A program made the position numbers and the translations under genes. Under the pieces are notes generated by a model. That model was not told the DNA's origin. It saw only the letters and a list, made by a program, of their open reading frames with translations, and searched no databases. A stretch of 22,305 nucleotides of DNA from positions 1 through 22,305 of IMG/VR virus record IMGVR_UViG_3300020000_000062; one strand, written 5' to 3'. How positions within the stretch are numbered: the first letter of the stretch is position 1; every line of letters begins with the position of its first letter. This DNA comes from a virus. Positions 5,547-8,493 of this stretch are shown one piece after another.

Positions 5547-6761
5547 CTATGCGACGACGGTAAGCCGGGGGCGCGCGCCAGACGGTAGGGACAGGGACGC
5601 CAGGGCGGCCATGGTGGCCGCGTCATCGGGCGCCAGGTGGGCATACGTGTTCGCGGTAATGCCTACGTCGGCGTGGCCTAGCCGCTTACTCACGGCCACT
5701 AGGGGGACTCCTGCGGCTAACAGCCACGACGCGTGGCTATGACGTAAGTCGTGGATACGCGGCCGGGTGGGTCCGTCCAACCCGGCGGCCACAATGGCGC
5801 GGTCCCACACGCGCCAAAAGGAACCATCGGACGGTAAGTCGAAAAGCGGGTCCGTCATCTTCCGGCCGCGCACGTGTTCGGCTAGCCGCGCCGTCAACGC
5901 CGAATCAATACCCACGGTCCGGGTCCCGGCTGCTGTTTTCGTCGCGCCGATTGTGTGGTTACCGTCCGGGGAATGCTTACGGCCGTGGAACACGGTAAGG
6001 GTCGGACCCGTGAACGCGCTTACCCGCAACGCCGACAGTTCCCCCCATCGGATACCGGTCCCGGCGAACGTTTCCACGACTAGCGCATATTCGGGCGCCA
6101 TGTTGTCCAGTAGCGCGGCATATTCGATGAGGGACAGGAAACGTGGCTTACGCGCCGTCGTCTTATCGGCGTGGATTCGGACGCCGGCACATGGGTTCAC
6201 TGTCGCCAACGGCCGCCCCTTGCTTGACGTTTCCAACAGGGCGCCACGCCGGTACGTGGACGAGACCAACCCGCGTAGGTTTTTGGCCGTCTTGTACACG
6301 TGACCCTTCCCCCCGTCCATACGGTCCGTCGTCAACCAATCCACCCATGACTGCATATCTTCCCGGGTTACATCTTCCACGGGTAGCGCGCCGATAGCGT
6401 GGCCGCGTATGTGGTCCCGTATCTGATTGCGGTACCTGGCGCGGGTCTGTTCCGACGCGCGGCAATCGTCGGACCCAATCCAACGCGTCATGTAGTCGGC
6501 CAACGTGTAACCGGACAGGTTGCGTCGTTGACTGTCGGCCGGTTCCCCCGCGTCCACCCGTGACGCCGTGTCCACGATTCCGGCCACCCACCCGACCCGG
6601 CGAACCCACCCGTTCGGCCAACGGTTCCCGGCCGACTCGACGGCGCCCCGGAACTTCCGCGCGTCTTTCATCGTGCCGAACGTTTCGGACTGGAAGCCGG
6701 GTAACCCGTCCTGGCGCCAACGGACCCGAATGGACGACGGCCGGGACTCGATGGACGCCAC
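5547..6761 (-). CDS. int: Tyrosine recombinase integrase
   Basis: 404 residues from a GTG at 6761, placed one base after the stop of the upstream gene; an ATG at 6836 would overlap that gene. The N-terminal region is an AP2-like arm-binding part (IRVRWRQDGLPGFQSETFG) and residues about 85-170 form a core-binding SAM-like domain. The catalytic domain shows Arg238 (GIRWGEL), Lys275 (TKTAAGTRTV), His337-x2-Arg340 (HDLRHSHAS), His363 (LGHAD) and Tyr373 (NTYAH), so all active-site residues are present. It inserts the phage at attB by strand exchange at attP. A strong terminator follows. The HTH protein at 4623-4841 is the likely directionality partner. Confidence 0.95.
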   Translation of the reverse strand: MASIESRPSSIRVRWRQDGLPGFQSETFGTMKDARKFRGAVESAGNRWPNGWVRRVGWVAGIVDTASRVDAGEPADSQRRNLSGYTLADYMTRWIGSDDCRASEQTRARYRNQIRDHIRGHAIGALPVEDVTREDMQSWVDWLTTDRMDGGKGHVYKTAKNLRGLVSSTYRRGALLETSSKGRPLATVNPCAGVRIHADKTTARKPRFLSLIEYAALLDNMAPEYALVVETFAGTGIRWGELSALRVSAFTGPTLTVFHGRKHSPDGNHTIGATKTAAGTRTVGIDSALTARLAEHVRGRKMTDPLFDLPSDGSFWRVWDRAIVAAGLDGPTRPRIHDLRHSHASWLLAAGVPLVAVSKRLGHADVGITANTYAHLAPDDAATMAALASLSLPSGARPRLTVVA

Positions 6762-6762
6762 G

Positions 6763-6954
6763 TCAGTACGCCAGTCCGTCAAACCGGAACACGACGGCGT
6801 GACCCATGGACAGATACTCAAGCGCGGACGCGTCACGGTCCGTCGTGTTGAGGAAGCACGAACGGGTCTGTCGGCCGTCCTTCCACGTAATGAGTAGTTC
6901 GTACGGGTAGCCGTAAACGGGCTCTAGCGATAGTTCCGGCGTCGTGTTTTCCAT
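6763..6954 (-). CDS. Hypothetical small protein before the integrase
   Basis: 63 residues from the ATG at 6954, which has an AGGGAC ribosome binding site five bases upstream. A longer reading to 7035 runs through the putative regulatory boxes and is less likely. The protein is acidic and beta-rich (YPYELLITWKDGRQTRSCFL) with no clear motif; the C-terminus is VVFRFDGLAY. I do not recognise it. It is the first gene of the leftward integrase transcript, one base from the integrase GTG, so it is coexpressed and may modulate integration. Confidence 0.7.
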   Translation of the reverse strand: MENTTPELSLEPVYGYPYELLITWKDGRQTRSCFLNTTDRDASALEYLSMGHAVVFRFDGLAY

Positions 6955-6994: not shown

Positions 6995-7023
6995 TGTTCC
7001 CAACCTGTTCCCGTTTGGGAACA
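6995..7023. promoter_or_regulatory. Three TGTTCCC-type boxes
   Basis: TGTTCCC at 6995-7001 and 7006-7012 (11-base period, one helical turn) and GGGAACA at 7017-7023, also 11 bases on. The last two form a 7-bp inverted repeat with a 4-base spacer. This spacing on one face of the helix suggests cooperative protein binding about 40 bases upstream of the leftward gene at 6954. Confidence 0.5.
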
Positions 7024-7047
7024 ACAGACTATCACGGGACTCTATTT

Positions 7048-7070
7048 TCCCCGGATTTACGGGGATTTTT
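7048..7070 (+). terminator. Short hairpin with T-tract (weak terminator or attenuator)
   Basis: Arms TCCCCG (7048-7053) and CGGGGA (7060-7065) enclose a 6-base loop and are followed by TTTTT on the plus strand. The stem is short. Lying in the divergent region, it could stop stray rightward transcription or attenuate a rightward promoter lying before 7048. Confidence 0.4.
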
Positions 7071-7074
7071 GTGT

Positions 7075-7093
7075 GTCCGGGGGGGGACTTGAA
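7075..7093 (-). other. Possible attP core resembling a tRNA 3' end
   Basis: On the minus strand this reads TTCAAGT followed by eight C and GGAC. TTCAAGT fits a T-loop, and the 12 bases CCCCC plus CCCGGAC would fit the 3' strands of a T-stem and acceptor stem. The 5' side does not pair, as expected for an attP that matches only the 3' part of a tRNA gene. It lies about 310 bases upstream of the integrase start. Speculative. Confidence 0.2.
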
Positions 7094-7159
7094 TTCTCCC
7101 CGTGTCCTAGTTTGTCCTATTTCGATATGGTTTCAAATCGTACTAAACCGGACACGCGC

Positions 7160-7173
7160 GGGAACATGTTCCC
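7160..7173. promoter_or_regulatory. Perfect palindrome GGGAACATGTTCCC
   Basis: A 14-bp perfect palindrome made from the same half-site (GGGAACA/TGTTCCC) as the boxes at 6995-7023. It lies about 150 bases before the rightward cassette. A dimeric regulator binding site is the likely reading. Confidence 0.55.
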
Positions 7174-7326
7174 AAAATTGGGTACGGCCGGGGACGTTCG
7201 ATACCCGGCCGGGGACGGTAGTTCGGGGACCCGGGAACGTGGCCGTATGTGCGTGGCTACTTCCCGTGTTTGGCATGTCCTGATTAGATGCACGTGACAG
7301 AAATCCTCGCAGACAGGGACGGACGG

Positions 7327-7665
7327 GTGAGAGTGACCAAAGCAGACAGGGACCTAGACGCGGCTATCGCGCATATGGACGTGACGCACGTTCATTGCCG
7401 GGACTACGGCCACGCGTGGCGGCCGCACACTGTGAGCGTTCTAGCCAAGCGCGCCGGGTACGAACAAGCGCTACGTTGCGGCCGTTGCGCCACCATCAGA
7501 CGGCGCGTGTTGGATCGCTACGGCTCGCAAGTGACGACGGCATACGACTATGCCGACGGCTACCTAGTGAACGGCCTAGGACGGCTTACGGGGTCGGACA
7601 GGGACCACATACGGCTAGCGTCCGTTCGCGCGCTACTGAAAGACGGGACGGACGATGGTTCGTGA
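7327..7665 (+). CDS. Hypothetical Cys/His protein, first gene of rightward cassette
   Basis: 112 residues from the GTG at 7327, chosen because CAGACAGGGAC ends six bases before it, the same leader as before the gene at 6954. An in-frame ATG at 7288 would add 13 residues but has no ribosome binding site. The protein has VHCRDYGHAWRP followed about 20 residues later by LRCGRCATIRRR, a likely single zinc site (Cys, His, Cys-x2-Cys), then a Tyr-rich segment (AYDYADGYL). Small actinophage proteins with a similar H-C-x-D-x-G-H-x-W pattern are familiar, but no function is known to me. The stop overlaps the zinc-finger gene by 11 bases. Confidence 0.7.
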   Translation: MRVTKADRDLDAAIAHMDVTHVHCRDYGHAWRPHTVSVLAKRAGYEQALRCGRCATIRRRVLDRYGSQVTTAYDYADGYLVNGLGRLTGSDRDHIRLASVRALLKDGTDDGS

Positions 7666-8200
7666 ACTGAAAACGATGGTTTGGTGCGACGGTTGCAACG
7701 CGCGCGAGACCTACACGGAAGCCACCTGGACGGCCGTCGTGTCCGTGGGTGACGTGTCCCGGCTGTTGGAACTATGCGCCGCGTGTCATGGCGAATACAT
7801 CGGGGACCTTGAAATAGACCTTAAGACGATAGGGACGCCAGTAGACGGACCCGCGCCGACCCGGCCGGGTGGCCGAACGGAATGCAGTCAATGCCACAAG
7901 CTCTATCAGACGCAAATCCTTCACGACTCCCACCTGCGACGCGCCCACCATGACACTTTGGCGACGGCGTTGATACTCCCGTACGCGTGTGAGTCATGTA
8001 CGGAACGGTTCCGGTCGGAAACGTCACTGGAACGTCACGAACGGTCCCCCGTCCATAACCCGCTTGCCAGTGACGAACGAACGAAATCCATTCGATGCCC
8101 GGAATGTGGGAAGTCATACGGGGGACCGCAGGGACTGTCGGCGCATCGTCGCATCGTCCACCCGGACGAATACCTAGCCGGTCGGACGGTAGGCGCGTGA
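7655..8200 (+). CDS. Zinc-finger protein with three C2H2 fingers
   Basis: 181 residues, ATG at 7655 with GGGAC just upstream. An N-terminal four-Cys unit (Cys11, Cys14, Cys41, Cys44) is followed by a Pro-rich linker and three C2H2 units: Cys77/Cys80/His93/His98, Cys112/Cys115/His128/His134 and Cys148/Cys151/His164/His169. All have C-x2-C-x12-H-x4-5-H spacing, with an aromatic residue four after the second Cys, and fingers 2 and 3 have the usual Leu before the first His. Classical fingers bind DNA or RNA, so a regulator or nucleic-acid-binding role is likely. The array is rare in bacteria, where Ros/MucR proteins have one finger with other spacing. The stop overlaps the next GTG start. Function not known. 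Confidence 0.85.
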   Translation: MVRELKTMVWCDGCNARETYTEATWTAVVSVGDVSRLLELCAACHGEYIGDLEIDLKTIGTPVDGPAPTRPGGRTECSQCHKLYQTQILHDSHLRRAHHDTLATALILPYACESCTERFRSETSLERHERSPVHNPLASDERTKSIRCPECGKSYGGPQGLSAHRRIVHPDEYLAGRTVGA

Positions 8201-8493
8201 TCGTTGACCTAGACCCGGACAACGACCCCCCGCTGTTGCGTGAAGTCGTCCTGTTGTGCCTGTCAGTTCTTAACGGGGACGACGACACGAACACGCGGGT
8301 ACTGGCGACGAACCTTGATAGGGGACCGAAACACGCGGCCGATTTCGTGAACATGACGGCCGGGTTGGCCGTGTCGGCGTTGGCGTCCCGTCACGCGGCC
8401 GCCGGGGACCGCGCGGCCATGTATCAGGCTCACCTATTGCTTGTGGAAATGCTGGAAGCGCTGGAAGCCATGATTGGGACCAGCGCCGGGTAA
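8197..8493 (+). CDS. Hypothetical helical protein, last gene of rightward cassette
   Basis: 98 residues from a GTG at 8197 that overlaps the zinc-finger stop as GTGA; a longer reading from 8095 would overlap that gene by about 100 bases. The sequence starts acidic (DLDPDNDPPLL), then a hydrophobic helix (REVVLLCLSVL), a loop, and two long Ala/Leu-rich helices (TAGLAVSALASRHAAAGD; HLLLVEMLEALEAM). It is probably a soluble all-helical, perhaps oligomeric, protein. No family is recognised. Tight coupling to the two genes before it suggests the three products work together. Confidence 0.7.
   Translation: MIVDLDPDNDPPLLREVVLLCLSVLNGDDDTNTRVLATNLDRGPKHAADFVNMTAGLAVSALASRHAAAGDRAAMYQAHLLLVEMLEALEAMIGTSAG

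Follow-up and report, generated by a model that had tools for sequence, protein, structure and literature searches.

A phage protein family that couples C2H2 zinc fingers to a putative zinc-binding relative of the Lsr2 dimerisation domain

The window, by which we mean the whole stretch of 22,305 nucleotides that was analysed (IMG/VR record IMGVR_UViG_3300020000_000062), contains genes for an integrase, RecE/RecT-like proteins, a tape measure protein, capsid, protease, portal and terminase, a gene content that marks it as a genome fragment from a temperate, tailed phage. Relatives of the tape measure protein are found mostly in actinophages, from which we infer that the host is actinobacterial. 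The integrase as a query retrieved no relatives in viral_contigs, and the whole window gave no match among phages by megablast.

A first-pass annotation had described a phage protein in which C-x2-C-x12-H-x4-5-H units follow an N-terminal C-x2-C...C-x2-C unit. That reading frame is present with exactly this arrangement (Table 1), and its phage origin agrees with the tape measure, portal, capsid, terminase and integrase genes around it. The gene shares 11 bases with the upstream phrog_4480 gene and a GTGA with the downstream ORF, on which grounds the three genes probably form one operon, with the translationally coupled 98-aa ORF as its probable third gene; tblastn found no relatives of this ORF in the fetched loci. 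The GC content of positions 7000-7199 is 51.5% (59.5% for the whole window), and a GC dip upstream of phage lsr2 is reported (PMC8612146). We put no weight on this as an lsr2-like signature, because the stretch is not the lowest in the window and our ranking across loci is skewed by how long the upstream stretch is.

Table 1. Features at and near the C2H2 protein gene in the window
Feature	Position	Strand	Remarks
Integrase; context of a temperate phage	5547..6836	-	phrog_1, E 1.9e-59
Upstream gene, phrog_4480 family (function unknown)	7288..7665	+	E 6.3e-21; genomic marker of the C2H2 family
C2H2 protein gene (Lsr2-N-like putative zinc module and C2H2 fingers)	7655..8200	+	ATG start, 181 aa
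Zinc-ligand-bearing Lsr2-dimerisation-like domain, residues 1-63 (C11, C14, C41, C44)	7655..7843	+	Fold match to 4e1p, profile-profile comparison, ligand conservation
Finger 1, C-x2-C-x12-H-x4-H, residues 77-98	7883..7948	+	Window only; low model confidence
Finger 2, C-x2-C-x12-H-x5-H, residues 112-134	7988..8056	+	Ligands 19/19 in family
Finger 3, C-x2-C-x12-H-x4-H, residues 148-169	8096..8161	+	Ligands 17-18/19 in family
Downstream 98-aa ORF, GTG start	8197..8493	+	4-base overlap (GTGA) with the C2H2 stop

Searches of the named phages by tblastn gave no match to the window protein at E ≤ 0.01; relaxing the cut-off to E ≤ 10 brought up just 22 weak, partial matches, all to the C-terminal finger region; a 'zinc-finger domain protein' of Tunturi_5 was a weak match in the phage search. 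There were three weak matches among plasmids, no confirmed relative in scans of viral_contigs and genome_contigs, only phrog_9259 (at 0.031) among the PHROGs and nothing credible in NCBIfam. The family member L004 had no match among phages at E ≤ 1, and with three different members as tblastn queries nothing credible came up among 50,697 named phage records at E ≤ 10. All known members come from uncultivated phages, which may be why the family has been overlooked.

Relatives of the upstream phrog_4480 gene in Mycobacterium and Gordonia phages directly adjoin genes for Lsr2-like DNA-bridging proteins. A profile of this gene fetched 44 IMG/VR loci, and in 23 of them the same strand encodes, downstream, a similarly built protein with the N-terminal unit followed by one or two C2H2 fingers. 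Twelve others have Lsr2 upstream, one (L025) has the N-terminal module alone, three lie on contigs that end too early and five have neither protein. Five of the 23 loci were dropped as copies (L019, L022, L023, L031 and L037), leaving an alignment of 19 rows (18 distinct relatives and the window); the finger-less L025 was kept for a set of 20 N-terminal sequences. The start codon of five members was moved to an M-R/Q-E start before a WCD motif. The gap between phrog_4480 and the C2H2 gene behind it ranges from -11 to 665 bases; half of the distinct relatives (9 of 18), and the window too, have the two genes overlapping or at most 3 bases apart. At two loci we noted by eye that large terminase-like ORFs with an HNH-type zinc start lie directly before phrog_4480 (L024:770-2851 and L030:782-2809).

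Because this set was gathered through phrog_4480, we also sought members without it as the query. Scanning with the C2H2 proteins added two contigs, L064 (upstream sequence too short) and L065, and a DNA pattern for the conserved N-terminal stretch gave one more member, L079, with phrog_4480 directly upstream. The gene is thus present in both testable independent members (E 3.1e-22 in L065 and 3.1e-15 in L079). Other matches of the pattern were unrelated ORFs (L078 and L081) or the L047 contig again (L080). In a search that covered the window and the records for 34 of the 44 loci, none of 20 records with the C2H2 family has a separate Lsr2 over the cut-off and none of 10 Lsr2 records has a convincing C2H2 family member, a mutual exclusion that is weak because the contigs may all be fragments. 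Three further matches were discarded as chance: one to PF11774 in G001 (15.7 bits, on the strand opposite the C2H2 gene), one to the family profile in G028 (14.7 bits, with an internal stop) and one elsewhere in the L079 record (12.8 bits).

All three fingers of the window protein have the usual aromatic position filled, and fingers 2 and 3 also have the leucine, as the first-pass annotation had noted. In finger 1 the ligands are C77, C80, H93 and H98, with H99 following. When residues were shuffled, a single C-x2-C-x12-H-x(3-5)-H motif arose in 79 of 20,000 shuffles and two or more in none of 20,000. The protein passes the Pfam cut-offs of zf-C2H2_4 (34.1 bits, cut-off 27), zf-C2H2 (30.7, cut-off 25.2), zf-C2H2_jaz (29.5, cut-off 22.6) and zf-C2H2_6 (28.2, cut-off 25), and on profile score it belongs with the C2H2 zinc fingers (PF00096/PF13894). 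Throughout the 19-row alignment C112, C115, H128 and H134 of finger 2 are each kept (19/19); in finger 3, C151, H164 and H169 are kept in 18/19 and C148 in 17/19, the exceptions being L039, which lacks the finger, and L038, which has C-x-C. None of the 18 relatives aligned with the window protein has an equivalent of finger 1.

An AlphaFold2 model based on the 19-sequence alignment (mean pLDDT 79.3) gives fingers 2 and 3 the bba fold at pLDDT ~91-94, and it has no bba finger at finger 1 (pLDDT ~49). An earlier model from three sequences (mean pLDDT 49.7) was confident in fingers 2 and 3 only, with finger 1 in b-b-a order at pLDDT <50. The annotation had made its proposal depend on modelled finger folds and on homologues that keep the Cys and His residues; both are seen for fingers 2 and 3. 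Two of the three classical fingers it named can be taken as firm, and finger 1 is possible. The linkers between the fingers of the window protein are long (13 residues) and not canonical, so this is not a Krüppel-type array with short TGEKP-type linkers. Four of the 19 members (L018, L034, L038 and L042) have an AT-hook-like GRP in a linker (0.62 expected by shuffling, P 0.002), which is no more than suggestive; the linker of the window protein has none.

Solved C2H2 arrays that bind DNA, CTCF among them, are matched in the PDB by the family profile, and nucleic-acid binding, as the annotation had proposed with DNA or RNA as the target, is probable. The jaz score comes from finger 2, and as that model is described as 'zinc-finger double-stranded RNA-binding' the protein could be an RNA binder with jaz-type fingers. 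However, only 4 of 19 members match jaz at E ≤ 1, compared with 16 for zf-Di19 and 14 for zf-C2H2_4, and the neighbourhood, together with the Lsr2-like module described below, points to DNA; we regard RNA binding as very improbable. C2H2 fingers can also bind proteins, and the window protein is not basic (21 K+R against 24 D+E), a near-neutral charge that would suit a protein-binding zinc scaffold such as the anti-defence protein suggested by the annotation. PADLOC, however, gave no match for any of seven proteins (the window protein, two relatives and four neighbours) and no defence-island context was seen. Both results speak against an anti-defence protein, and we give a protein scaffold of any kind only a slim chance.

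C2H2 fingers usually read a specific sequence. The protein could therefore be a conventional dimeric regulator that represses or activates a few phage promoters at specific sites, without bridging or coating DNA, perhaps in the control of lysogeny: the phage is temperate and the C2H2 gene adjoins the integrase. In other phages, however, the gene lies elsewhere, for example before a portal-like gene, or after a terminase-like gene in L065, and where C2H2 fingers usually contact bases finger 3 has small residues, not long side chains. We consider such a regulator rather unlikely.

In the N-terminal unit, residues 11-60 are modelled from the 19 sequences at pLDDT 90-97 as a knuckle, a b-hairpin and a helix carrying C41 and C44, and over the 19 rows C11 and C41 are kept in all, position 44 is C or H in all and position 14 is C or H in 17. 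The four ligands of a zinc-bearing treble clef are thus present in the sequence, and zinc is predicted; a knuckle C-x2-C, a hairpin and a C-x2-C/H at the helix start is the pattern such a fold should have. In structural alignment the best PDB match among the 50 listed was 4e1p_A, the dimerisation domain of M. tuberculosis Lsr2 (Z 6.3, rmsd 3.6 Å, 55/55 residues, model residues 4-63), which we treat with caution because its Z lies below 8, the tool's safe level; the next-best match over the N-terminal part, among the same 50, had Z 4.5. Searches of BFVD (Foldseek E 0.025-0.05) placed Lsr2-like proteins of Microbacterium phage Kaijohn at rank 10 and of Gordonia phage Volt at rank 20. Independently, the Lsr2 structure 4E1P had already been classed as a treble clef without zinc (PMC4999995).

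Profile-profile comparison points the same way. Aligned with hhalign, the 20 N-termini match 13 phage Lsr2 proteins with a probability of 91.6 and P 8.2e-7, the signal lying in the N-terminal half of Lsr2 (P 3.5e-7) and not in the C-terminal half (P 0.48). The match persists when the start residues are trimmed (P 3e-5), and the best of 200 column-shuffled controls reached P 0.0053; with only three sequences per side the value was P 0.077. The member L047 scores 29.1 bits (E 7.7e-7) with Pfam Lsr2 (PF11774), for which the cut-off is 29.6, and matches phrog_1223, 'Lsr2-like', at E 6.9e-6. The N-terminus of the window protein had no Pfam Lsr2 match at E ≤ 10 and no BLASTP alignment to phage Lsr2, and the link to Lsr2 therefore runs through the family. 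A plain HMM of the N-termini ranked Lsr2 ORFs 3-5 of 995 ORFs at E values (0.6-1.6) that are not significant, and the N-terminal profile found nothing below E 0.71 among PDB sequences. Taken together, sequence and model support a kinship between the N-terminal unit, with its zinc ligands, and the Lsr2 dimerisation domain. The four-Cys unit of the annotation (C11-x2-C14...C41-x2-C44) is real, and its relation to Lsr2 had been missed.

The protein is nevertheless not an Lsr2 family member, because it lacks the C-terminal domain and the Pfam cut-off is missed. PF11774, the N-terminal dimerisation domain, is not matched by the window protein and is narrowly missed by its best relative, L047; PF23359, the DNA-binding domain at the C-terminus of Lsr2, is absent among the best 25 of 27 Pfam families at E ≤ 1, and fingers stand in its place.

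Variants of the module occur with other C-termini or with none. L025:3282-3518 encodes a 78-aa protein directly after phrog_4480 with a zinc-type Lsr2-like N-terminus and, in three forward frames, no fingers behind it; it is a natural finger-less form and possibly an antagonist. In L079, the gene after the C2H2 protein gene (L079:6414-6917) encodes a second C-x2-C...C-x2-C N-terminus with a weak DUF4258 match, so the zinc module may have been shuffled onto other ends. Streptomyces phage Lannister gp30 (L062:2980-3255), a 91-aa 'DNA binding protein' encoded beside an immunity repressor, is the top match of the N-terminal HMM (8.5e-7; PF11774, 18.9 bits) and has an Lsr2-like N-terminus and a K/R-rich tail without the Lsr2 DNA-binding domain.

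Such forms would suit a counter-silencer, whose Lsr2-like module would pair with host Lsr2 and poison its oligomers, leaving incoming phage DNA unsilenced. The module is Lsr2-like by profile and by fold, L025 has the module without fingers, gp30 does without the Lsr2 DNA-binding end, and PMC8612146 puts forward such interference for xenogeneic silencers of phages. Mixed dimers with host Lsr2 are, however, doubtful given the zinc-ligand core and the low sequence identity, and conservation of the finger 2 ligands in all 19 members argues that DNA or RNA binding matters. We think a counter-silencer improbable.

The explanation that we favour, with some reserve, is a dimeric DNA-binding protein with an Lsr2-like layout, in which C2H2 fingers would serve as the DNA head by analogy with MucR, an unrelated silencer with a zinc finger. 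As in the actinobacterial nucleoid protein Lsr2, a pairing module would come first and a DNA-binding end second; the pairing module would be the Lsr2 dimerisation domain in a treble-clef form that keeps zinc ligands, with two C2H2 fingers (perhaps three in the window) in place of the C-terminal Lsr2 DNA-binding domain. Dimerisation or oligomerisation through the N-terminal modules would bring several fingers into one complex and allow DNA to be bridged or coated, and in a temperate phage the protein would most likely silence or regulate promoters of the phage (or the host). The analysis shows that the N-terminus is related to Lsr2 in fold and in profile, that the ligands and the fingers are conserved and that the neighbourhood is common with Lsr2; that the protein binds zinc and DNA, dimerises, bridges and silences is predicted. 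We propose an oligomerising silencer or regulator because of the Lsr2 layout and neighbourhood, the proposals made for phage Lsr2 and the MucR precedent, and we hold back from greater confidence because of the near-neutral charge, the long linkers, the small contact residues of finger 3 and the jaz match of finger 2.

The likeness to Lsr2 and phage Lsr2-like proteins (PF11774 and PF23359; phrog_1223) extends to the N-terminal dimerisation-type fold, the small two-part layout and a phrog_4480 neighbour in actinophages. In contrast to Lsr2, the family keeps N-terminal zinc ligands and has C2H2 fingers without the Lsr2_DNA-bd domain, and its gene comes after phrog_4480 whereas the Lsr2 gene precedes it. 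With Ros/MucR of the alpha-proteobacteria the family would share, by analogy, a working principle of N-terminal oligomerisation and C-terminal zinc-finger DNA binding. Ros fingers have a spacing of x9, whereas the family has C-x2-C-x11/12-H-x4/5-H, two or three fingers and an Lsr2-type N-terminus. No common profile of Ros/MucR and the window protein was seen, and in the Pfam search, in which C2H2 models passed their cut-offs, ROS_MUCR was absent among the best 25 of 27 families at E ≤ 1. We therefore reject Ros/MucR membership on spacing (x11/x12), finger number and profile, in agreement with the annotation, which had set the protein apart from Ros/MucR by its spacing (x12 in the window). MucR is reported to be an oligomerising zinc-finger protein and an H-NS-like silencer (PMC9779718; PMC10746212), and Lsr2 is the xenogeneic silencer of actinobacteria, carried by many of their phages (PMC8612146). 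The latter paper also describes a Ku-Lsr2 fusion in cluster J phages, from which it follows that domain swaps around Lsr2 occur in actinophages; the fusion keeps the C-terminal part of Lsr2 and replaces the N-terminus, the reverse of what is seen here.

The fingers resemble those of eukaryotic C2H2 arrays (CTCF, the designed Aart) and of plant Di19 in fold and ligands, but the window protein differs in its long linkers, its two or three fingers, its Lsr2-like N-terminus and its origin in a phage gene. The annotation had called tandem C2H2 fingers a eukaryotic hallmark, which overstates the case: two other viral contigs encode four (L016:3619-4479, overlapping an excisionase-like HTH ORF) and two (L017:4974-5555) tandem fingers, with no Lsr2-like N-terminus in their translations, and the family profile matches PDB entry 2wbt (B-129), which we take to come from a Sulfolobus virus. 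In Gordonia phage Walrus an unannotated stretch (L010:3001-3117) encodes a single C2H2-like motif, with a long spacer, immediately ahead of a gene called 'DNA binding protein'.

C2H2 fingers, Lsr2 and phage Lsr2 were known already; what appears to be new is an Lsr2-type architecture with C2H2 fingers, of which we found no example in the literature searched. The zinc-ligand-bearing relatives lend sequence support to the published view of Lsr2 as a treble clef without zinc. If our reading is right, actinophages put eukaryotic-style fingers where Lsr2 has its DNA-reading end, and converge with MucR. Phage Lsr2 is postulated to maintain lysogeny, or as a foreign silencer to disturb host silencing (PMC8612146). 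More tentatively, the family may consist of phage-born nucleoid-bridging silencers that combine a zinc-bearing Lsr2 module with tandem C2H2 fingers, and its N-terminus may represent the state from which the zinc-free Lsr2 derives. If so, this would be another independent way to an H-NS/Lsr2-type silencer, and the sequence-reading heads could direct DNA looping, as a phage analogue of CTCF-like bridging.
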